Below are positions 1 to 10,161 of a DNA stretch of 10,161 nucleotides, in pieces. Position 1 is the stretch's first letter. Each line of letters begins with the position of its first letter. Source of the DNA: Bacillota bacterium (lineage in GTDB: Bacteria > Bacillota > Clostridia > Peptostreptococcales > Anaerovoracaceae); assembly GCA_017537495.1 (NCBI GenBank), contig JAFYKS010000088.1, forward strand, positions 1 through 10,161, in the 5' to 3' direction. The position numbers were made by a program, and so were the translations under genes. The notes under the pieces were generated by a model. That model was not told where the DNA came from and did not search any database. It worked only from the letters and a program-made list of their open reading frames with translations.

Positions 1-237
1 GGTGTATTCGGTTCTCAGCTGATTCCATGGCACGTATACCTGGGCTTCTATGTAGGTATTGCTTCTGGTGTATATCCACTGGTAGAAATCACCAACATGG
101 ACTTCCTGAAGTTCAACTTCATGGCATATATTGCTGTAGGTTCTCTGTTAATTCTGACCTTCACTGGTCTGGATAGATTCGTTCCTCTGTTCGCTCTGCC
201 ACAGGAACCAGAAGTAAGATTAAAGAAAGCAGCATAG
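1..237 (+). CDS. NhaC-family Na+/H+ antiporter, 3' end only (upstream tandem copy)
   Basis: Frame 1 is open from the first base to TAG at 235-237 and encodes the last 78 residues of a membrane transporter; the 5' part lies outside the window. The peptide aligns without gaps to the last 78 residues of the complete gene at 477-1928, with 69 of 78 residues identical by my count and the first 59 bases identical. Differences cluster in the cytoplasmic tail, which here ends LPQEPEVRLKKAA. It is therefore the C-terminus of a second NhaC-family protein (predicted sodium/proton or cation/solute exchange at the cytoplasmic membrane). Codon use is as strongly biased as in the downstream copy (GTA, GCT, CTG, AGA), suggesting high expression. 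A strong terminator follows directly. The family call rests on the full-length paralogue. Confidence 0.85.
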   Translation, partial: GVFGSQLIPWHVYLGFYVGIASGVYPLVEITNMDFLKFNFMAYIAVGSLLILTFTGLDRFVPLFALPQEPEVRLKKAA

Positions 238-411: not shown

Positions 412-476
412 AGATTAGACGATGTACGTAATAACCACATTATATATTTATGGTGTTTAGAAAAGGAGAAAACAAA

Positions 477-1928
477 ATGTCTGCATTACTGAAATTCGTT
501 CCAGTATTTGTACTTGCTGGTCTGATGATTAGTGGTCAGGACGCATTAATCGCTGCTTTCTTAGCTTGCGTATGTGCGTTCATTATCGCAGGAGTTGTAG
601 CTAAGGTTAAATTCCAGGACGCTTTAGACTCCGCTATGAAGAGCGTTAGCCATATTCTGGTAGCTCTGTTTATTCTGATGTTTGCTTATGCAATGGCAGA
701 AGCATTCATGTCCTACGGTGTAGGCGCTGCAATCATTAACATTGCACTCTCCCTGGGTATCACTGCAAAGTCTGTAGCATGCGTTGGCTTTATCTGCTGC
801 TGTCTGCTGTCTGTTGCAACCGGTACTTCCTGGGGTACTTTCGCAGCTTGCGCACCAATCTTCATGTGGCTGTCCCACATCGTAGATGGTAACCCAATTC
901 TGACTGTCTGCGCTATCGCAGGTGGTGCTTGCTTCGGTGACAACATCGGTCTGATTTCCGATACAACTATCGTATCTTCCGGTATTCAGGGCGTAGAAGT
1001 TATCCACAGAATCAGACACCAGGGCGTATGGTCTGTAGGCTGTCTGGTACTGTCAGCAATCTGCTTCTTCGCAGCAGGTATCGTAATGGGTCTGCCTGGT
1101 GAAACTGTAGAAGCTGCTGGCGTAATGGCAGAAATTCCTGCTGACGTATTCGCTTTCCTGGAAGTTGAAAGACCTGCAGCATTAACTCTGCTGGAACAGG
1201 TATCCTCTGGTGTTCCTGTATACATGGTAGTTCCTCTGCTGATCGTAATCGCTCTGGCAGTTATGGGCTTCAACACCTTCATCTGTATTGGTTCCGGTCT
1301 GGTATCTTCTTATGTACTGGGTCTGGTAGCTGGTACTGCTGGTTCCGTTCAGTCCCTGCTGGATGACATCATCTACGTTGGTTTCGAAGGCGCTGGTGCT
1401 TGGGTAATCATCATGATGATGTGGGTTGCAGCATTCGGTGGTGTAATGCAGAAGATGGATGCATTCGCTCCTCTGGCAGCTCTGGTTGTAAAGATGTCCA
1501 AGAAGGTAAGACACCTGATGGGTTGGAACGCAGTTCTGTCCCTGTTAGGTAACGCTGCTCTGTCCGACGAAATGGCTCAGATCGTAACAATCGGTCCTGT
1601 TATCGGCCAGATCGTTGACGAAAACGTTGAAGGTTCCGAAGAAGATATGTACACTCTGCACTTAAGAAATGCTACATTCTCCGATGCTCTGGGTGTATTC
1701 GGTTCTCAGCTGATTCCATGGCACGTATACCTGGGCTTCTATGTAGGTATCGCTGCTGGTGTATATCCACTGGTAGAAATCACTAACATGGACTTCCTGA
1801 AGTACAACTTCATGGCTTACATTGCTGTAGGTTCCATCATTATCCTGACCTTCACTGGTCTGGACAGATTCGTTCCACTGTTCAAGCTGCCTGCAGAACC
1901 AGCTGTACAGTTAAAGAAGAAAGCTTAA
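477..1928 (+). CDS. NhaC-family Na+/H+ antiporter (complete tandem copy)
   Basis: A 483-residue polytopic membrane protein with about 11-12 hydrophobic segments. Family-typical motifs are visible: ATGTSWGTF around residues 115-122 and GACFGDNIGLISDTTIVSS around 150-168, matching the GTSWG and GD...ISDTTI signatures of the NhaC antiporter family. Such proteins exchange sodium for protons, and some relatives move organic acids or amino acids, so the substrate is open. I chose ATG 477 over the in-frame ATG 450 because AAGGAG (463-468) sits 8 bases before 477. Codon use is extremely restricted (Arg almost only AGA; many GTA, GCT, GGT, CTG), as in highly expressed genes. The upstream neighbour is a near-identical paralogue; downstream, after a terminator, is a Kdd-like sigma-54 activator, so a role in uptake or ion balance during amino-acid fermentation is a reasonable inference. 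Confidence 0.9.
   Translation: MSALLKFVPVFVLAGLMISGQDALIAAFLACVCAFIIAGVVAKVKFQDALDSAMKSVSHILVALFILMFAYAMAEAFMSYGVGAAIINIALSLGITAKSVACVGFICCCLLSVATGTSWGTFAACAPIFMWLSHIVDGNPILTVCAIAGGACFGDNIGLISDTTIVSSGIQGVEVIHRIRHQGVWSVGCLVLSAICFFAAGIVMGLPGETVEAAGVMAEIPADVFAFLEVERPAALTLLEQVSSGVPVYMVVPLLIVIALAVMGFNTFICIGSGLVSSYVLGLVAGTAGSVQSLLDDIIYVGFEGAGAWVIIMMMWVAAFGGVMQKMDAFAPLAALVVKMSKKVRHLMGWNAVLSLLGNAALSDEMAQIVTIGPVIGQIVDENVEGSEEDMYTLHLRNATFSDALGVFGSQLIPWHVYLGFYVGIAAGVYPLVEITNMDFLKYNFMAYIAVGSIIILTFTGLDRFVPLFKLPAEPAVQLKKKA
1692..1928 (+). repeat. Direct repeat of 1-237 (tandem gene duplication)
   Basis: Positions 1692-1928 correspond codon by codon to 1-237, with no insertion or deletion. The first 59 bases are identical. 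Later differences are a mix of synonymous changes and nine amino-acid changes, five of them in the C-terminal tail. The intergenic sequences after the two copies are unrelated, so the duplicated unit ends at or near the stop codon. Confidence 0.9.
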
Positions 1929-2010: not shown

Positions 2011-2031
2011 ATGATTCAAAAATGATTCAAA
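2011..2031. promoter_or_regulatory. Tandem ATGATTCAAA repeats, candidate operator of the activator gene
   Basis: ATGATTCAAA occurs at 2011-2020 and again at 2022-2031, exactly 11 bases (one helical turn) apart and directly upstream of the -35 element at 2036. A related TGTTCAAA lies at 2051-2058 within the promoter spacer. The 14-mer TGATTCAAAAATGA (2012-2025) recurs at 4698-4711 upstream of a sigma-54 promoter. Binding by the adjacent activator, giving autoregulation, is inference. Confidence 0.5.
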
Positions 2032-2035
2032 GCGA

Positions 2036-2065
2036 TTGACAGAGGCAGCCTGTTCAAAGTATAGT
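2036..2065 (+). promoter_or_regulatory. Sigma-A promoter of the sigma-54 activator gene
   Basis: A consensus TTGACA (2036-2041) is followed by an 18-base spacer and TATAGT (2060-2065). Transcription would start near 2072, leaving a leader of only about 15 bases that begins at the AAAGGAGGA ribosome binding site (2072-2080). The short leader is unusual, but both boxes are good and nothing better lies between the terminator and the gene. Confidence 0.6.
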
Positions 2066-2086: not shown

Positions 2087-4171
2087 ATGATTGTGAAACG
2101 TTTTGGTGTGAGCCGTGTACTGGAACCGAAGGGAACCATACCTGCGGCAGCATGGAAAATAGATAACAGCCGGAACCTGGGAAAAGGTGAAATACGCATC
2201 CGGCTGGAAATGCTGCACATTGAGTGGGATAACTTCTGCCAGATCTGCAGCCATTGCGGATATGATGAGACCGGGATTAAGGCCAGAATCATGCAGATTA
2301 CCCAGCAGAGAGGAAAAATGCATAACCCGTATACAGGCAGCGGCGGACTATTCATGGGCGTGATTGACGAAATCGGACCGGAGACTGATGCTGGTGATTT
2401 CAAACCAGGTGACAGGGTGTTCAGCCTGTCCTCTCTGACAGGGGTAGCAATGCATCTGGACCGGATTGATGGCATTGACTTTAACTACGGGCAGGTGACT
2501 TGCCAGGGGTATGTAATCTGCTTCGAGGCCACCAGTATGGTTAAATATGACGGAAAAGCATCGCCGAAATATCTTCTGTCTGCAATTGACGAAGAGGGAA
2601 ACTTTCTGGGGGTTCGCCAGGCAATACAGGACCAGCGTGCTGAACGGGTATCCATTATAGGCGGAAACCCTGTAACCACGCTGCTCTATGCGCAGATGCT
2701 TACCGACTGTTACGGCAAGGGTACTCATGTGACTGCTATTATGGACAGGAACTCATTGGGTATGCTGACCGAAAGGGAAATAACTGCAGCATTCCTGCCG
2801 ATCATTAAACGTACCTGCTTTGTGGATTTGAGCCGTCCTATTGAGGCTTATGAGTCTGTAGTAGAGCAGCTTTATGATCCCCGTCCCATGGATGCGGTAA
2901 TCAACCTGGAAGATATATCCGGATCTGAAATTGTAGCGACGCTGCTGGTAAAAGAGCGGGGGACCGTATTCTATACAAGCTTGAAGAATAACTACGGTGC
3001 AGGTCTGCTTGCTGCAGACTCCATGGGAAAAGAAGTCACATCTTATGCATTGGACGGATATGTGAGAGAGGCCCACGAGTTCGCTGCAGAACTGATTGAA
3101 AAAGTAAGTTCCAACCTGGAATTTCTGGATGCAATCTACGGCGTGAAAAAGAAACAGAACTATGACGTTCGGATTTTGAACCGTGAAAGAAAGTCAGAAC
3201 TGGCAACCGAACGGATTGATGACTTTGTATACCGCAGTCCGGTAACGGCTGCGATGATTGATGAAGCACTCAATGTGGCTCAGTATGACTGCAGTGTAAT
3301 TATCCAGGGAGAAACCGGTGTAGGGAAAGAAAAAATATTTAATATCATTCATCAGAACAGTCCGCGGCAGGGCAAACCGTGCGTAAAGATAAATTGTGCT
3401 ACCATTCAGGAAAACCTGGCAGAATCGGAGTTTTTCGGCTATGAGAAGGGCGCGTTTACGGGGGCACACACATCCGGCAAAGCAGGATATTTTGAGGTGG
3501 CCAATAACGGAACGCTGTTTCTGGACGAAATAGGTACGCTGTCGCTGAATATGCAGTCCAAACTTCTTCGGGTCCTTCAGGAAAATACATATTACCGGGT
3601 AGGGGGAACAGAGCAGAAACATACCAATGTCCGTGTGGTCTGCGCCAATAACGTGCCTTTACGAAAGCTTGTACAGGAGGGTAAATTCCGTGAGGACCTG
3701 TATTACCGCCTGAATATCTGTTCTATTGACGTTCCTCCGCTGCGGGAACGAAAAGAAGATATTGGATGCCTGGCGGACGCTTTTCTCAAAAGCTACAGCC
3801 AAAAATATGGTATGGAAAAAGAATTTGCTCCGGAAACACTGGTAAAGCTGGAAGCCTATCACTGGCCGGGAAATGTGCGGGAACTGGAAAATGCGGTCCA
3901 CCGTTTATACATTGGGGAACGTGAACGTGTAATCGGAGAAGATGCAGCAGACCGTCTTCTGAACGGATCTGTTTATGAGAACATGATTATCAATCTGAAG
4001 CAGGAGTTCAGCCGCAATGAAGGTGTGGATTTCAATCAGATTATGGAAGAGCAGGAAAAGAGGCTGATAGCCTATGCTCTGAAAAAAGAGGGAACAACCA
4101 GAAAAGCTGCAGAATATCTGAATCTGCCGCAGGCAACTCTGGCAAGAAAAAAAGTCCGCTACGGTCTGTAG
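2087..4171 (+). CDS. Sigma-54-dependent activator with Kdd-like (3,5-diaminohexanoate dehydrogenase-like) sensory domain
   Basis: A 694-residue enhancer-binding protein. Residues 1 to about 350 resemble L-erythro-3,5-diaminohexanoate dehydrogenase of lysine fermentation: EPKG (13-16), AWKIDN (22-27), [13 protein letters not shown] (75-87). The Rossmann region reads IIGGNPVTT (190-198), so the usual glycine-rich NAD loop is degraded and the domain may sense rather than catalyse. The AAA+ domain (about 383-625) has Walker A GETGVGKE (408-415), GAFTGA (455-460) for sigma-54 contact, Walker B LFLDEIG (477-483), [16 protein letters not shown] and WPGNVREL (593-600). A helix-turn-helix (about 670-689) ends the protein. 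ATG 2087 follows AGGAGGA by 6 bases; the in-frame TTG at 2036 lies in the promoter. Likely ligand: a diamino acid intermediate (inference). Targets may include the sigma-54 promoter at 4588-4604. Confidence 0.92.
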
Positions 4172-4198: not shown

Positions 4199-4432
4199 TT
4201 AGCGCATCATCTTGGTCTGCAGCAGGAAGTCTGCTCTTGCATTTTCCATTTCTTTCAGACATTCAGCGATTACTGTATCGATCAGTTCGTCGGACGCGTC
4301 GATGTAGTCTCTCTGGCAGATTGCCTTCATAGCAGTCTTCAGTACAGCTACCTTCATATCGCCGTTTAAGTAAGCAGCGTTTGCGTTCCAAGCTTCATTG
4401 AATGCATCTTTTAAATTGATTCTGATGGACAT
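4199..4432 (-). CDS. Unrecognised 77-residue cytoplasmic protein, probably highly expressed
   Basis: I do not recognise this family. The 77-residue product starts MSIRINLKDAFNEAW and ends LLQTKMMR. It has no signal peptide or membrane segment, looks mostly helical and acidic in the middle, and has two cysteines. The ATG at 4432-4430 is fixed by GGAGG (4445-4441) 8 bases upstream; a longer in-frame extension would run through that site. Codon use is restricted in the same way as the NhaC genes (GTA, GCT, AGA, CTG, AAC), pointing to high expression and a real gene. It has its own promoter region, with a sigma-54 element at 4588-4604 and a possible sigma-A promoter at 4520-4548, and it converges on the activator gene. 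A role tied to the activator's pathway is inferred from position only. Confidence 0.82.
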   Translation of the reverse strand: MSIRINLKDAFNEAWNANAAYLNGDMKVAVLKTAMKAICQRDYIDASDELIDTVIAECLKEMENARADFLLQTKMMR

Positions 4433-4587: not shown

Positions 4588-4604
4588 AGCATATTCCGTG
4601 CCAA
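4588..4604 (-). promoter_or_regulatory. Sigma-54 (-24/-12) promoter of the 77-residue protein gene
   Basis: The minus strand reads TTGGCACGGAATATGCT, matching the sigma-54 consensus TGGCACG-N4-TTGCW with one change (ATGCT for TTGCT). The invariant GG and GC are 10 bases apart. Transcription would start near 4577, about 145 bases before the ATG at 4432. Only the 77-residue gene lies downstream on this strand before the bidirectional terminator. A sigma-54 activator gene ends about 400 bases away, which makes chance less likely. Confidence 0.75.
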
Positions 4605-4697: not shown

Positions 4698-4724
4698 TGA
4701 TTCAAAAATGAATTGGGATGAATC
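4698..4724. promoter_or_regulatory. Candidate upstream activating sequence (GATTCA/TGAATC cluster)
   Basis: TGATTCAAAAATGA (4698-4711) repeats the 14-mer upstream of the activator's own promoter. Within the cluster, GATTCA (4699), TGAATT (4709) and TGAATC (4719) are spaced at 10-base steps, and ATTCA-AAAA-TGAAT forms a perfect dyad (4700-4713). It lies about 120-150 bases upstream of the predicted sigma-54 start site, the usual distance for an enhancer-binding protein. Occupancy by the activator at 2087-4171 is inference. Confidence 0.5.
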
Positions 4725-4751
4725 GTAAATGAGTCAATGCTGTAAATGTCA

Positions 4752-5421: not shown

Positions 5422-6411
5422 ATGGGTGATTTGATTTTATATCTGGGCGTGACATTTGCCGGGTTTGTAATCGGCAGCAAAGTCCGCAGCCATAAGGAAA
5501 AATTCAGCTGGACGGCCCGCGTTCAGATGGTGGCTTTGATTGCTCTGGTTCTGACCATGGGGATGCGTATGGGCTCCAATGAGGAGGTAATTGCCAATCT
5601 GAGTACCATTGGCATTTCTGCACTTCTGATGACAGTGGTGATTATGGCCTGTTCCATTCTGGCTATCTGGCTTGCCCGTCAGGCTATGGGCATCGACAGA
5701 TACGGCAGAATGAAGAATGCAGGAGCGGGTGTTTTGCCAAGTGAGGGCGGTGCAGAAACGGCAGCAGCGGAAGAGGAAGCGGCTGGCGGCAATTCCACTA
5801 CAGTGGCGATTATTGCATCCGTAGCTGCGGGAATGGCCTTTGGCTATCTGGTGATTCGCCGCGTGTTTGAGGGAAATATGGATCAGTTTGATTCTCTGGC
5901 CGGACTTACCATCAAAATCGGTCTTTGCCTGCTTCTGGTCTTCATCGGACTGGATCTGGGACTGGACGGAACGGTTGTGGATAATTTTAAAAAGGTTGGC
6001 CTGCGTATTCTGGTATTCCCCGCTGTCGGGGTTGTGGGGACTCTGGCAGGTGCTGCTGCATGTTCCATCTTTATGGACTTTTCACTGAAAGAGTGTCTGG
6101 CTATCGGTGCCGGCTTTGGCTGGTATACTCTGGCACCCGGTATCATCATGGAAAACGGTTATGTAACAGCCAGTGCAGTTGCATTTCTGCATAACGTAAT
6201 GCGCGAGCTGTTTTCTATCATCTTTATCCCGCTGATTGCGAAAAAAATCGGCTATATCGAAACTACCGGCATGCCCGGTGCGGCTGCCATGGACGTATGC
6301 CTGCCAATCGTGGAAAAATCCACACGCAGCGATATCGCCGTATATTCTTTCGTTTCCGGTGTGATTCTCAGCACCGCTGTACCGATTATGGTTCCGCTGA
6401 TTATCGGATAG
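5422..6411 (+). CDS. lysO: LysO-family lysine exporter, first paralogue
   Basis: A 329-residue polytopic membrane protein of the LysO (DUF340, formerly YbjE) family, whose E. coli member of about 299 residues exports L-lysine and its toxic analogue thialysine. Diagnostic segments are GFGWYTLAPG (231-240), the following AFLHNVMREL, and AAMDVCLPIV (about 288-297), matching FGWYSL...D.ARE and SMDFTLPV of the E. coli protein as I recall it. An Ala/Glu-rich cytoplasmic linker (about 104-125) separates the short N-terminal membrane half from the C-terminal half. ATG 5422 follows a purine-rich GAGAGGG. The stop codon overlaps the ribosome binding site of the next gene, a second paralogue 10 bases downstream, so the two are co-translated. 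The substrate could be lysine or a related diamino acid; the direction of transport is not visible. Confidence 0.85.
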   Translation: MGDLILYLGVTFAGFVIGSKVRSHKEKFSWTARVQMVALIALVLTMGMRMGSNEEVIANLSTIGISALLMTVVIMACSILAIWLARQAMGIDRYGRMKNAGAGVLPSEGGAETAAAEEEAAGGNSTTVAIIASVAAGMAFGYLVIRRVFEGNMDQFDSLAGLTIKIGLCLLLVFIGLDLGLDGTVVDNFKKVGLRILVFPAVGVVGTLAGAAACSIFMDFSLKECLAIGAGFGWYTLAPGIIMENGYVTASAVAFLHNVMRELFSIIFIPLIAKKIGYIETTGMPGAAAMDVCLPIVEKSTRSDIAVYSFVSGVILSTAVPIMVPLIIG

Positions 6412-6421
6412 GAGTGTTTTT

Positions 6422-7417
6422 ATGGATACGCTGAAACTTCTCGCCATGTACTGGAGCATTATGCTGGCATGTTATTTTATCGCCAGCCGTCTGCGTCACA
6501 GGGCAGAATCCTTTGGATTTCTGAACAGAATACTGACCTTCTTCATCATCCTGCTGGTATTTATCATGGGTCTGCAGATGGGGGCGGACGAAGAAGTGAC
6601 CTCCAGCCTGGGGACAATCGGACTGCAGGCGGTAATCATGACGGCTCTGGCCGTGGGCGGAAGTATGTTCTTTGTATTCCTTGGCCGCAAAATCTTCGGT
6701 CTGAACCGGCAGGGGGTATCCGCATCGGCTCCTGATGAAGCTGTTTCCGTGGAACCGGATGCTGCAGCAGCGCAGCAGAACAGCAACAGTGATCTGATTA
6801 TGACGCTGCTGATTCTGGCATTTGTGGCAATCGGCATGGGATGCGGATATTTTGCAGTACCGAAACTGTTTGCCGGAAACATGGATCTTTTCGAAACCCT
6901 CTGCAGCAAATCGCTGGTGATTGGGCTGAGTACTCTGCTGGGGATTATCGGCTTCAATATGGGCCTTTCCGGAGATATGGCAAAACATCTGCGGGGCGTG
7001 GGTCTCAGTGTGATCGTGATTCCTGTGCTGGCTGTGGCCGGTTCTCTGGTGGGAGGCGCGGTTTATGGACTGCTTTCTGATCTGTCTGTGGGTGAAGGAA
7101 TTGCTATCAGTGCCGGCTTTGGCTGGTACACTCTGGCACCCGGCCTGATTACGGAAGCCGGATACAATGTGGCAGGGGCAATTGCCTTCCTGCATAATGT
7201 AATGCGTGAGACTCTGGGCATCATCGGAATTCCGTTGTTCGCCAGATATATTGGATATCTGGAGGCAACGGCTGTACCGGGGGTTGCTGCCATGGACGTA
7301 TGCCTGCCGATTGTAGAACGTTCTACACGGCCTGAAGTAGTTGTGTACTCCTTTGTAACAGGACTTCTTATGTGCATCAGCGTACCTCTGATTGTACCGC
7401 TGATGGTTGGGATGTAA
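6422..7417 (+). CDS. LysO-family lysine exporter, second paralogue
   Basis: A 331-residue paralogue of the preceding gene with the same order of segments: MGLQMGADEEV near the N-terminal half (the first copy has MGMRMGSNEEV), an Ala-rich linker (about 99-122), GFGWYTLAPG (232-241), AFLHNVMRE, and AAMDVCLPIVERSTRPE (about 289-305). Only the linker and the intervening helices have diverged clearly. TAGGAG, which includes the previous stop codon, is its ribosome binding site. Tandem membrane paralogues of near-equal length and tight coupling suggest a heteromeric transporter or two specificities (inference). The next gene follows after 27 bases with no terminator, so all three are likely one operon. 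Confidence 0.83.
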   Translation: MDTLKLLAMYWSIMLACYFIASRLRHRAESFGFLNRILTFFIILLVFIMGLQMGADEEVTSSLGTIGLQAVIMTALAVGGSMFFVFLGRKIFGLNRQGVSASAPDEAVSVEPDAAAAQQNSNSDLIMTLLILAFVAIGMGCGYFAVPKLFAGNMDLFETLCSKSLVIGLSTLLGIIGFNMGLSGDMAKHLRGVGLSVIVIPVLAVAGSLVGGAVYGLLSDLSVGEGIAISAGFGWYTLAPGLITEAGYNVAGAIAFLHNVMRETLGIIGIPLFARYIGYLEATAVPGVAAMDVCLPIVERSTRPEVVVYSFVTGLLMCISVPLIVPLMVGM

Positions 7418-7815: not shown

Positions 7816-10161
7816 TTATTCAATAGATTTCAGCGACTCCGTCATACTGATCTTTGCAAGTTTGCGCTGCATTACCAGATTCACCAGGAAGGCAAATGCG
7901 AAGGTGATGACAATTCCCAGAGCGTAGCTCAGTGGGCTGATATACATGTGGAAACTGAGAGCATCCACGGTTACCTGAGAGAGAACGAAGGTGTGAAGTG
8001 CTTTGCCAAGCGGCAGACCCACAACGGCAGCGATGGCAGTCAGCAGGATATTTTCACGGAATACATACTGTGCCGTTTCACCGGCGTAGAAGCCCAGAAC
8101 CTTGATGGTGGCGATTTCACGGATTCGTTCGGTAATATTAATGTTGGTCAGGTTGTACAGCACGATGAAGGCCAGGACACCGGCACAGGCGATAACCAGA
8201 AGTACAATGTAGCTAAGGGTGCCGATCATACCTTCGATACGTCCGCGCATATCTTCTGTCAGGCTGACTGCGGAAACGTTTCTTGCATCCAGCATGATAG
8301 TGCTGTCTCCGTAAGGATCTTCGATTTCTCCGTCTTCACCTGTCACACCCAGTACCAGGGCAGCGTTGGTTTCCATTGGTCCCCATCTGTTTTCGTAAGT
8401 TTCCTGACTGAGATACAGGTAGCTGTTAACGTAGTTGTCGCAAAGCCCGGAGAGCTCCAGCTCCATTTCCCGCATATCGCTGTCGTAAATAGTGAGCGTA
8501 TCTCCAACGCAAAGTCCCATATTGTCGGCCAGGTTGCTGTTCAGAACTGCTTTGCCCTCGGATGGCCAGTCAATCGGACCGTCATCGTTAAACAGTTCGA
8601 TATATGCCGGCATGGACTCTGCGTCATCACTGACAATCATGGTGACGGCTTTGGTGAAGCCGTTGGCCTTGGCATCCACAGAACTGGAGTGAACGAAGAG
8701 ACAGTCGTCGATAACGGAGCCTGCTTCTTCCAGGAACCGCTGCTGGTTCTTTTCGTTCATATCCTTCTTAAAGGATACGGTGTAGTCTACATGATAGATG
8801 GTATCGTACTGAAGGGCTGCCAGGTTGCTGACGGAATCGTTGATTCCCAGTCCGGTTACCAGCAGAGCGGTACAGCCGCTGATGCCGATTACCATCATGA
8901 TGAAACGTTTGCGGTAACGGAAGGTGTTTCGGATGGAAACCTTCACCAGGAAGCTGAGTCTGTTCCAGATAAACGGCAGGTATTCCATCCAGATTCGTTT
9001 GCCGGCCTGCGGTGCTTTCGGACGAATCAGCTGTGCCGGAACTTCACGAAGCTCTGCGCTGCAGCACCATACGGTAGTACCTACGCAGCAGGCAAGGGCC
9101 ACACCCAGGCAGATCAGCCCAAGGCCCCAGTTATAAATAAAGATAATATTGGCAAAGCCGTACATGAGACCGTATACGGTCCAGATAACCCATGGGAACA
9201 GGTGAATTCCGATAAAGAATCCAATCACAGAACCCAGGACAGCGGCACTGCCGGAATAAATTACGTACTTGCTCATAATCTGACGGCGGCTGTATCCCAG
9301 GGCTTTCAGAACGCCGATCTGGGTTCGCTGCTCGTCAATCATTCGTGTCATGGTAGTCATGCAGACCAGTGCTGCGATGAGGAAGAAGAATACAGGGAAG
9401 ACCCGTGAGATGCCGTCCACGATGGAAGAGTCACTCTCAAAACATGCATATCCCACATTCGCGTCTCTTCCCAGCACATAGGTGGTCGGATATTCAATAT
9501 CATCGATTTCTTTTTCCGCATCTTTCAGTTCTTTGCGGGCATCTGCGATTTTCACTTCGCCGTCCGCAATTTCTTTTTCTGCGTCCGCAATTTCTTTCTC
9601 TGCATCGGCTATTTTCCGGCGGGCATCGGCCAGTTCTTTTTCGCCATCCGCCAGCTGCTTTTCGCCGTCCGCAATTTCTTTTTCTGCGTCCGCAATTTCT
9701 TTTTCACCGTCGGCCAGCTGCTTTTCACCATCAGTGATTTCAGCCTCGCCGGCTTCGATTTCTGCAAGCGCCGCATCAAGCTCTGCTTTGGCTGGAGCCA
9801 GCTGCTGATCAATCTGTGCCTTCTGTGCATCATACATATACTGAGGCATCATACCGGAAGCCAGAGCCTGATTAATCTGGGCATAGGCGGCATCACGCTG
9901 TGCTTCGAACTCTGCCAGACCATCCTCGTAGGATGCACGTCCGTCAGCCAGTTCGGCTTTGGCGTCATCCAGCTTTCTGCGGTTTTCTTCCAGTTCTTTT
10001 CTGCCGTCAGCCAGTTTGACTTTTGCATCTTCGATTTTCCGTCTGTTTTCATTAATCTCTTTCTGTCCGTCAGTCAGTTCTTTTTTACCGTCGGCCAGCT
10101 CGTTTTTGCCTTTGACCAGTTCGCGCTTACCGTCTTCGAGCTCAGCGGCGGCTTCATCCAC
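7816..10161 (-). CDS. FtsX-type ABC transporter permease with coiled-coil hairpin, 5' end missing
   Basis: 781 codons are open to the window edge; the first visible codon is GTG, and no N-terminal membrane helix is present, so the start lies outside. Visible residues 1 to about 75 and about 114-225 are heptad repeats rich in ADGEKEL/IADAEKE units, separated by a non-repetitive stretch (about 82-113) that probably forms the turn of an antiparallel coiled coil outside the membrane. Then comes an FtsX core with RTQIGVLKALGYSRRQI after the first membrane helix, more helices, a SIRNTFRYRKRFIMM linker, a second extracytoplasmic domain, and a second FtsX core with ERIREIATIKVLGF. This duplicated layout is that of large permeases partnered with a LolD/MacB-like ATPase, often for lipid, peptide or envelope functions. 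The ATPase gene is not visible and may lie beyond the right edge. Confidence 0.88.
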   Translation of the reverse strand: MDEAAAELEDGKRELVKGKNELADGKKELTDGQKEINENRRKIEDAKVKLADGRKELEENRRKLDDAKAELADGRASYEDGLAEFEAQRDAAYAQINQALASGMMPQYMYDAQKAQIDQQLAPAKAELDAALAEIEAGEAEITDGEKQLADGEKEIADAEKEIADGEKQLADGEKELADARRKIADAEKEIADAEKEIADGEVKIADARKELKDAEKEIDDIEYPTTYVLGRDANVGYACFESDSSIVDGISRVFPVFFFLIAALVCMTTMTRMIDEQRTQIGVLKALGYSRRQIMSKYVIYSGSAAVLGSVIGFFIGIHLFPWVIWTVYGLMYGFANIIFIYNWGLGLICLGVALACCVGTTVWCCSAELREVPAQLIRPKAPQAGKRIWMEYLPFIWNRLSFLVKVSIRNTFRYRKRFIMMVIGISGCTALLVTGLGINDSVSNLAALQYDTIYHVDYTVSFKKDMNEKNQQRFLEEAGSVIDDCLFVHSSSVDAKANGFTKAVTMIVSDDAESMPAYIELFNDDGPIDWPSEGKAVLNSNLADNMGLCVGDTLTIYDSDMREMELELSGLCDNYVNSYLYLSQETYENRWGPMETNAALVLGVTGEDGEIEDPYGDSTIMLDARNVSAVSLTEDMRGRIEGMIGTLSYIVLLVIACAGVLAFIVLYNLTNINITERIREIATIKVLGFYAGETAQYVFRENILLTAIAAVVGLPLGKALHTFVLSQVTVDALSFHMYISPLSYALGIVITFAFAFLVNLVMQRKLAKISMTESLKSIE
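9495..9745 (-). repeat. In-frame 21-base heptad repeats, second coiled-coil arm
   Basis: About a dozen tandem, imperfect 21-base units encode seven-residue steps of the type I-A-D-A-E-K-E and L-A-D-G-E-K-Q. Each unit carries the same DNA core (TTTCTTTTTCTGCGTCCGCA or close variants on the + strand), so this part has probably expanded by unit duplication. Confidence 0.8.
9937..10161 (-). repeat. In-frame heptad repeats, first coiled-coil arm (runs off window)
   Basis: Seven-residue steps of the type L-A-D-G-K-K-E and N-R-R-K-I-E-D continue to the window edge. DNA similarity among units is weaker than in the second arm, pointing to an older, more diverged repeat tract. The two arms would pair across the turn encoded around 9823-9918. 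Confidence 0.7.

Follow-up and report, generated by a model that had tools for sequence, protein, structure and literature searches.

A sigma-54 activator of the Anaerovoracaceae with a Kdd-family domain as its predicted ligand sensor

The stretch analysed here, hereafter called the window, comprises positions 1 to 10,161 of contig JAFYKS010000088.1 from a Bacillota bacterium of the family Anaerovoracaceae (assembly GCA_017537495.1). At positions 2087..4171 of its plus strand it contains a gene whose 694-aa product joins a full-length domain of the L-erythro-3,5-diaminohexanoate dehydrogenase (Kdd) family to a sigma-54 activator. We propose, with a probability of about 0.7, that the Kdd-derived domain serves as a ligand sensor in the control of lysine fermentation and the associated transport; in this proposal the ligand, the end of catalytic activity and the way in which activation occurs are what we infer. 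The identity of the fold, the domain make-up, the shared descent of the fusions, the loss of the cofactor loop, the retention of a substrate-side motif, purifying selection in one pair of genomes, the promoters and the shared enhancer motifs are supported by computation.

Domain composition and descent of the fusion protein

The gene starts with an ATG codon at position 2087 that is preceded by an AGGAGG ribosome binding site, and its stop codon ends at position 4171; the open reading frame (ORF) program had placed the start at an upstream TTG at position 2036. The sensor domain includes residues 1-345 (2087..3121, plus strand), according to the PDB match, the alignment and the profile-profile comparison, and is marked by the motif RGKMHNP (residues 75-81), a degraded Rossmann loop GGNPVT (residues 192-197) and a glutamate, E169, where the enzymes contain valine. 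The AAA+ sigma-54 interaction domain with its lid (residues 383-619; 3233..3943, plus strand) contains the Walker A sequence GETGVGK and the GAFTGA loop, and the Pfam models Sigma54_activat (residues 383-547) and AAA lid (residues 553-619) matched above their cut-offs. The C-terminal helix-turn-helix (HTH; residues 649-694; 4031..4168, plus strand) was recognised by HTH_50 with 25.2 bits (E=1.3e-05), slightly under the Pfam cut-off of 27 bits. The protein accordingly belongs to the sigma-54 activators, or bacterial enhancer-binding proteins, as it combines a Sigma54_activat AAA+ domain with Walker A and B and GAFTGA, a C-terminal DNA-binding HTH, and a genome that encodes rpoN and contains -24/-12 promoters. 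The best NCBIfam match of the C-terminal part was PrdR (NF041552) with 332 bits, compared with a cut-off of 795 bits, and the protein is not a member of this equivalog; the match covers the C-terminal part only. The first-pass annotation, which was made from the sequence alone, had described an apparently retired Kdd joined to a complete AAA+/HTH activator; the joined domains were found as described, and its motifs were located at residues 13-16 (EPKG), 22-27 (AWKIDN), 75-87 (a 13-letter motif) and 192-197 (GGNPVT).

Chance or mis-assembly as the origin of the fusion was ruled out because the same architecture recurs in database proteins and on long contigs. With the window protein as query, 114 database proteins matched residues 1-345 at similar total length, among them P0114 without an AAA+ domain and P0097 with part of the Kdd-like domain only. 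A second fusion of the same genome, the paralogue described below, retrieved 974 proteins that overlap with these 114, and all 120 matches listed carry PF00158. No fusion was found in viral contigs scanned with a single-protein query, which detects close relatives only.

The Kdd model NF052381, which spans about half of the enzyme, matched residues 7-171 of the window protein (E=7.9e-38). The score of 130-134 bits is under the 200-bit equivalog cut-off, and the domain is therefore not assigned to the Kdd enzymes by score; neither is it by the Rossmann glycine loop for NAD(P), which reads GGNPVT in the window. Membership in the Kdd fold and family is given by full-length sequence homology. The structure 7dl3 of 3,5-diaminohexanoate dehydrogenase was matched by residues 5-341 with E=1.3e-22, compared with E=0.54 for the best other dehydrogenase among the matches listed, a quinone oxidoreductase. 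When PDB was searched with a profile of eight fusion N-domains, the three Kdd chains (E=5e-64 to 2.5e-62) were the only matches with E no higher than 0.01, and a profile-profile comparison of these eight domains with ten Kdd enzymes yielded a probability of 100 and E=1.5e-71 over 330 columns. The Pfam model ADH_zinc_N was detected at E up to 0.1 in 10/10 Kdd enzymes vs 0/8 fusion N-domains, and ADH_N was weakly present in three of the eight fusion domains (best E 0.0056); the window domain matched neither model at E up to 0.1 and is no member of the generic zinc alcohol dehydrogenases. An origin from a generic alcohol dehydrogenase was thus ruled out by the PDB search, the fusion-profile search and the Pfam scan, and NF052381, 7dl3 and the profile-profile comparison agree on the Kdd-family fold that the motifs had first suggested.

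Residues were counted in 70 fusions and 48 enzymes. The fusions comprised seven early-branching rows (two of them one record), 53 fusions of the kdd type and ten of the window type; L110, with an unmatched Walker A, was left out, and a 120-row count left out P0114, P0031 and P0097 for their length and P0007 for an unmatched Walker A. The Rossmann pattern GxxGxxG is present in 43/48 enzymes and in 5/7 early-branching rows, but in 0/53 kdd-type and 0/10 window-type fusions, that is, in none of the 63 derived fusions. The loss of this loop in the window protein was borne out; the enzyme form that the first-pass annotation gave for comparison, GAGG..G, reads GGGGKSG or similar in the Kdd enzymes shown. 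The residues R10, E35, G76, K77, N80 and P81 are present in 70/70 fusions. The valine V170 of all 48 enzymes is replaced by glutamate (E169 in the window) in 65 of the 70 fusions, including all seven early rows, by glutamine in four and by aspartate in one, at a position expected to lie beside the catalytic cleft in the dehydrogenase superfamily. The window-type fusions differ from the enzymes at positions 44, 46 and 48. Of 130 positions with a conservation of 93% or more among 65 enzymes, 54 are kept by the window domain and 49 by the paralogue, compared with 81 in G416, 77 in G484 and 100 in G111.

Comparison with one same-genus relative (92% identity) gave a dN/dS ratio of 0.055 for the N-domain, 0.045 for its Rossmann-like half and 0.031 for the AAA+ domain; these ratios are rough because dS in this single pair is high (1.1, near saturation), which takes some weight from the argument. 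The low value of the N-domain makes it look maintained and not decaying, and in this one genome pair the sensor domain looks to be under purifying selection.

The absence of the cofactor loop along with the retained substrate-side motif argues against both NAD(H) sensing and catalysis in the derived members. One alternative holds that the N-domain is still a trigger enzyme, for which the ongoing oxidation of 3,5-diaminohexanoate would itself be the signal, in the manner of the bifunctional protein PutA. This would be in line with the NAD loop of five of the seven early-branching rows, with G111, which retains 100 of the 130 positions under strong conservation in the enzymes, and with the residue that aligns with Glu310 of the solved Kdd, which the available part of its description reports to bind the NADPH amide (PMC9902596); the corresponding D311 of the window is Asp or Glu in 70/70 fusions. 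The missing loop of all 63 derived fusions, the window's included, the exchange of V170 for E169, the unrecognised ADH_zinc_N in the eight scanned domains and the free-standing Kdd enzymes that are already present make signalling by turnover improbable. A domain that reads the NAD+/NADH ratio, which the first-pass annotation had listed among the possible signals, agrees with the binding of NADPH by the parent enzyme, as stated in the available part of the same source (PMC9902596), but the glycine loop expected to hold the dinucleotide is destroyed whereas the substrate-side motif is kept, so that redox sensing is disfavoured and appears very improbable.

The shared descent of the fusions was analysed by two trees, both of which were quick, unrooted searches with some long branches and with the Shimodaira-Hasegawa-like approximate likelihood ratio test (SH-aLRT) as the only support measure. 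In the N-domain tree, with 39 of the 70 fusions and 48 enzymes (24 drawn at random), every fusion fell to the same side of a single branch (SH-aLRT 99). For those 39 proteins the AAA+ portions likewise clustered together when compared with 17 other activators (SH-aLRT 99). The grouping in the trees of both halves fits a single fusion event, and Kdd was probably captured once as activator input domain. The term early-branching presumes a root on the enzyme side and refers to six members, namely G111, G484, G416 (whose record is also L115), one metagenome-assembled genome (MAG) each of Oscillibacter and of the Desulfobacteraceae, and Cohnella. A distinct kdd-kal-kce set adjoins four of them. Within the stretches of L064, L115, L123 and L139 (G111, a Clostridiales MAG, the Desulfobacteraceae MAG and Cohnella kolymensis), this set is found without kam genes, and its substrate may be another 3-amino acid.

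Gene context and regulatory sites of the kdd-type fusions

The source genome of the window (2.1 Mb, 475 contigs, a MAG of 90% completeness) contains four Kdd-like frames. Contig C43 encodes two free-standing Kdd enzymes followed by kamA, and the paralogous fusion (696 aa) is located directly upstream of this kdd-kdd-kamA region, with kal divergently oriented on the other side and with exact sigma-54 sites pointing to kal and to kdd. The genome encodes rpoN, and sigma-54 consensus sites were detected 18 times genome-wide, compared with two for the reversed control.

A scan of named genomes matched at least 590 stretches, the best 80 of which were kept as loci. Fusions, defined by a frame of more than 500 aa through the match, were present at 53 of these, and 27 had shorter frames, including L108 as the first piece of a split fusion. 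The 53 fusion loci consist of five of the window type (L072-L076), four early-branching ones (L115, L123, L134 and L139) and 44 that were taken as kdd-type. Genes of lysine fermentation were found at 40 of the 44 kdd-type loci by ORF calling and at 41 after a tblastn recheck that recovered kal in L120; representatives of each pathway enzyme were checked against NCBIfam. With L097 left out, kdd was among the next three downstream ORFs in 35/43 cases and a divergent kal was present in 33/43. The usual order is kal on the minus strand and, on the plus strand, the fusion gene, kdd, kamA, kamB, kamC and kamD, as seen in Anaerovorax sp. IOR16, in Sinanaerobacter and, within the limits of its stretch, in Emergencia timonensis. 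Among the 27 non-fusion loci, some sigma-54 activator was encoded at four, one being L108. The survey of neighbourhoods that the first-pass annotation had called for thus places homologous fusions beside kal, kdd, kamA-E and kce, and neither a generic dehydrogenase as the better match nor a general absence of fusions from pathway loci, either of which would have spoken against a Kdd-type sensor, was seen. At L078, from an Anaerovorax odorimutans MAG, two different fusions stand in tandem directly before kamA. As a separate observation, the fusion genes of L139 (535+161 aa) and L108 (322+361 aa) are split in two frames, and a sequencing error and a real split are not distinguished in these cases.

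The intergenic regions of 52 loci (51 named loci and C43), providing 34 kal-fusion and 35 fusion-kdd stretches of less than 700 bp, were searched with the sigma-54 consensus TTGGCAY-N5-TTGCW at up to one mismatch. Sites were present toward kal in 24/34 and toward kdd in 30/35 stretches, 22 being exact in each set, whereas the opposite strands contained 0/34 and 1/35, respectively, and mononucleotide shuffles averaged 0.05 (kal) and 0.0 (kdd) in the forward and 0.1 and 0.15 in the opposite direction. An earlier count, which allowed up to two mismatches, required GG and GC and ended the upstream regions at neighbouring ORFs, gave lower figures: 22/31 for kal, 22/41 for kdd, 3/3 for kddb and 5/159 for other ORFs of fusion loci. 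In this count the fusion genes themselves lacked a sigma-54 site in all cases (0/46 upstream regions). At loci filed as enzyme-only it yielded 3/12 for kdd, 0/8 for kal/kalb and 2/106 for other ORFs, and L076, L097 and L108 of that control group really hold fusions or a split fusion. Moreover, the sequence CGGTTC occurs in both intergenic stretches of 26 of the 28 loci having both (0.4 expected), the half-site in 65/69 stretches and the palindrome GAACCG-N4-CGGTTC in 12 cases. Many of the GAACCG/CGGTTC half-sites in L005 and the named kdd-type loci are separated from the downstream -24 element by only 34-45 bp, a spacing shorter than is usual for an enhancer.

The Kdd model was matched in 82/398 genomes of a phylum sample and in 32/391 genomes of a class sample. 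Fusion frames of 686-731 aa were present in two and seven of them, respectively, eight genomes in all as the window's genome belongs to both samples, and each of the eight also contains a free Kdd enzyme. Both fusion types are carried by each of five genomes of the window's genus.

The window locus and its transporter branch

The expectation that the window copy itself lies at the pathway operon did not hold, as it adjoins NhaC, LysO and a 77-aa orphan gene; the copy at kdd is the paralogue on C43. Sigma-54 sites were found near the fusion at 7/7 window-type loci (the window, L069 and L072-L076), nine in 49 kb compared with 0.2 in mononucleotide shuffles. The gene downstream of such a site codes for the 77-aa orphan or a relative of it in the window and in L072-L075, for NhaC in L069 and for an aminotransferase in L076; in L075 an antiporter-family gene also follows a site. 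In the window, a sigma-54 promoter-like site (TTGGCACGGAATATGCT, 4588..4604, minus strand) precedes the orphan gene (4202..4432, minus strand), a predicted target in view of the sigma-54 sites at window-type loci, and similar sites occur in relatives. Because a loose scan of the window at two mismatches was no richer than chance (three sites, 4.5 expected), the weight of the 4588 site is placed on its rank as best site and on its conservation.

A shared element, TGANTCA-N4-TGANTCA, occurs at up to one mismatch at five places of the window's genome and at one place for the reversed control. It is exact at window positions 2012-2029 and at C220:786-803, and contains one mismatch at window positions 4719-4736, on C309 and on C354. 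The exact copy of the window, TGATTCAAAAATGATTCA (2012..2029), one of two in the 2.1-Mb genome, is a candidate operator or enhancer and is directly followed by a sigma-70-like promoter of the fusion gene (2036..2065, plus strand; TTGACA-18-TATAGT, 11/12), a site that is weak taken alone as promoter-like matches in the region numbered 5 with 5.2 expected by chance. The candidate operator abutting this promoter suggests that the fusion gene is autoregulated. A second candidate enhancer (4719..4736, one mismatch) is located 115 bp upstream of the sigma-54 site, and the element scan indicated a third, weaker one with two mismatches at 4698..4715. The copy on C220 stands 127 bp before a sigma-54 site, behind which a gene of the antiporter family begins that is truncated where the contig ends. 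The predicted enhancer sites accordingly point to the orphan, to the fusion's own gene and to another gene of the Na+/H+ antiporter family.

Upstream of the fusion, an NhaC/ArcD-like transporter of the Na+/H+ antiporter family is encoded at 450..1928 (plus strand; Pfam, NCBIfam), and positions 1..237 (plus strand) hold the 3' part of another NhaC gene arranged in tandem with it (87% DNA identity to 1692-1928), the contig breaking inside this first copy of the duplicate. NhaC is divergent from the fusion in L215, L216, L217 and L069. The orphan protein has 35 database relatives, matched no Pfam family of its own and is repeatedly encoded under a sigma-54 site beside window-type fusions; in a relative of 247 aa, from L074, the unit seems to be repeated. 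Two proteins of the LysO lysine-exporter family are encoded downstream at 5422..6411 and 6422..7417 (both plus strand), present in 4/4 and 2/4 further loci of the genus, respectively. In these four loci, NhaC, PyrR and LysO surround the fusion; L214 and L215 contain the orphan with its sigma-54 site, with the enhancer-to-site arrangement in L214 being like that of the window, and L217 shows a one-mismatch sigma-54 site facing NhaC. A permease-like ORF at 7816-10161 (minus strand) contains a long repetitive coiled-coil-like stretch at 9500-10161 with repeats of the type ADAEKEIADGEKQL. A riboswitch control of the transporters was set aside, as an Rfam scan of the window at the gathering threshold matched no family.

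These neighbours bear on the signal of the window-type branch, which, instead of the Kdd substrate, might be an amine such as lysine or beta-lysine. Such a change is favoured by the genes beside window-type fusions (NhaC, LysO, an antiporter-family gene and an amino-acid permease), by the deviating positions 44, 46 and 48, and by the fetched stretches of L072-L076, none of which contained a pathway enzyme gene (5/5 named window-type loci), although kce was found seven genes away from a window-type fusion in G633. In L076 the fusion follows a class-III aminotransferase gene with a sigma-54 site, an arrangement which suggests a possible transfer of these sensors to further pathways of amine metabolism. 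On the other side, R10, E35 and RGKxxNP are unchanged in 10/10 window-type fusions, and the five genomes of the genus each hold both branches. Lysine or another amine is thus a possible ligand of the window type, and we regard a switch of signal in this branch as unlikely, though deserving of consideration.

Proposed mechanism and comparison with known systems

According to the proposed sensor function, a Kdd copy would have been captured at the N-terminus of a sigma-54 activator, as its input domain; the cofactor loop would then have disappeared, with the substrate-side motif left in place. This domain would bind a diamine or keto-amine of the pathway, in all likelihood 3,5-diaminohexanoate or the keto compound formed from it, 5-amino-3-oxohexanoate. 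A substrate or product of Kdd is favoured because the genes for Kdd, Kal and Kce recur as neighbours even in G111, which lacks lysine 5,6-aminomutase. Binding is predicted to release or assemble the AAA+ ring, which would open sigma-54 polymerase at -24/-12 promoters. Of two main branches in the Anaerovoracaceae, one would control kal and kdd-kamA-E, and the window branch would control NhaC or antiporter-family transporters, the 77-aa orphan and probably its own gene. A wider scenario is tentative, and we would not rely on it in full: one ancient capture may have made a catabolic enzyme the sensor of its own pathway's activator, the early fusions (G111, Cohnella and Desulfobacteraceae) keeping the NAD loop and perhaps being dehydrogenase and activator in one chain, and the Anaerovoracaceae may have retired the chemistry, duplicated the gene and re-aimed one copy at transport.

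Several data weigh against the proposed control of lysine fermentation and transport. KamD (lysine 5,6-aminomutase) was unmatched in the window's genome, the MAG of 475 contigs and 90% completeness, and also in the whole genome of G111 (100% complete), whose fusion can therefore not read lysine flux through that enzyme. No pathway gene was found at three of the 44 kdd-type loci (L097, L117 and L119) even after the tblastn recheck, and G[AS]FTGA was unmatched in 9/71 fusion sequences. The window contains no sigma-54 site for NhaC; L217 lacks the orphan and an enhancer at one mismatch, L216 has the orphan without a sigma-54 site or an enhancer at one mismatch, and the enhancer was unmatched in L069, L072 and L076, where a looser form of the element was used for the search. 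Finally, a family survey matched the Kdd model in 184/349 genomes, above the enzyme cut-off in 167, and 17 of the 184 had no match above it; 16 of these 17 are less than 90% complete, and G942 (94% complete) is not easily excused. A strict co-occurrence of fusion and enzyme, true for the eight genomes of the two samples, was thus broken by the wider survey. The same 17 genomes count against the idea that no small molecule is sensed and that the domain co-assembles with free Kdd subunits and reports enzyme occupancy. Most kdd-type fusions have a gene for free Kdd as a neighbour, and the whole fold is under purifying selection in the single pair compared, but we consider co-assembly the least probable of the explanations.

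The Kdd-derived ligand sensor that we favour would supply a candidate regulator of lysine fermentation, a butyrate route in a gut bacterium according to the available part of PMC4697335, together with predicted operators and promoters. The candidate is present in species-named, non-MAG genomes (Emergencia timonensis SN18, Anaerovorax sp. IOR16 and Sinanaerobacter chloroacetimidivorans), and the graded series from a near-intact to a retired enzyme inside the sensor allows a stepwise test of the change from enzyme to sensor. It probably lets the cell tell when the pathway chemicals are present. Among the matches listed, the open-access literature contained neither a description of a Kdd-sigma-54 fusion nor a regulator of lysine fermentation. 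Database names of the fusions, where given, are those of a generic sigma-54 regulator, with the exception of P0104, whose JGI name combines the dehydrogenase half with a regulator and indicates that annotation software had already seen the architecture. In the available part of PMC12316311, lysine 2,3-aminomutase is listed among sigma-54-regulated genes enriched in Bacilli, and lysine is mentioned once.

The fusions are homologous to Kdd (NF052381; PDB 7dl3, 7dl0 and 7dl1) over the full length and keep G76, K77, N80, P81 and most of TGSGG, but they differ by the AAA+/HTH part, the lost Rossmann loop, the exchange of V170 for glutamate and a score under the enzyme cut-off. They share with the sigma-54 activators PrdR and NtrC1 the AAA+ domain with GAFTGA, the lid and the C-terminal HTH, and differ in that the input domain is a dehydrogenase fold. 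The available part of a survey of 57 Clostridiales species distinguishes eleven types of input domains (PAS, GAF, HPr, PrpR_N, ACT, CBS, Fer4, Fe-hydrogenase, FeS, V4R and receiver) and no dehydrogenase, and the word lysine is absent from its main text (PMC6615313); the dehydrogenase fold is thus added to this set. OrdR is predicted, in the available part of the same survey, to activate ord-ort-ora-orr-nhaC, the operon of ornithine oxidation, with sigma-54 (PMC6615313). It resembles the fusions in that sigma-54 governs genes of amino-acid fermentation together with nhaC, and differs in the pathway, which is that of ornithine. The reuse of enzyme folds as sensors is already known from MocR/GabR, in which, according to the available part of PMC5320631, an aminotransferase-like sensor with bound pyridoxal phosphate (PLP) is placed on a GntR-family DNA-binding domain. 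Both systems employ a fold of amino-acid metabolism as the sensor of a one-component regulator; a PLP aminotransferase fold is combined with a GntR domain there, whereas a dehydrogenase fold of the medium-chain dehydrogenase/reductase type without its cofactor loop is combined with a sigma-54 AAA+ domain here.

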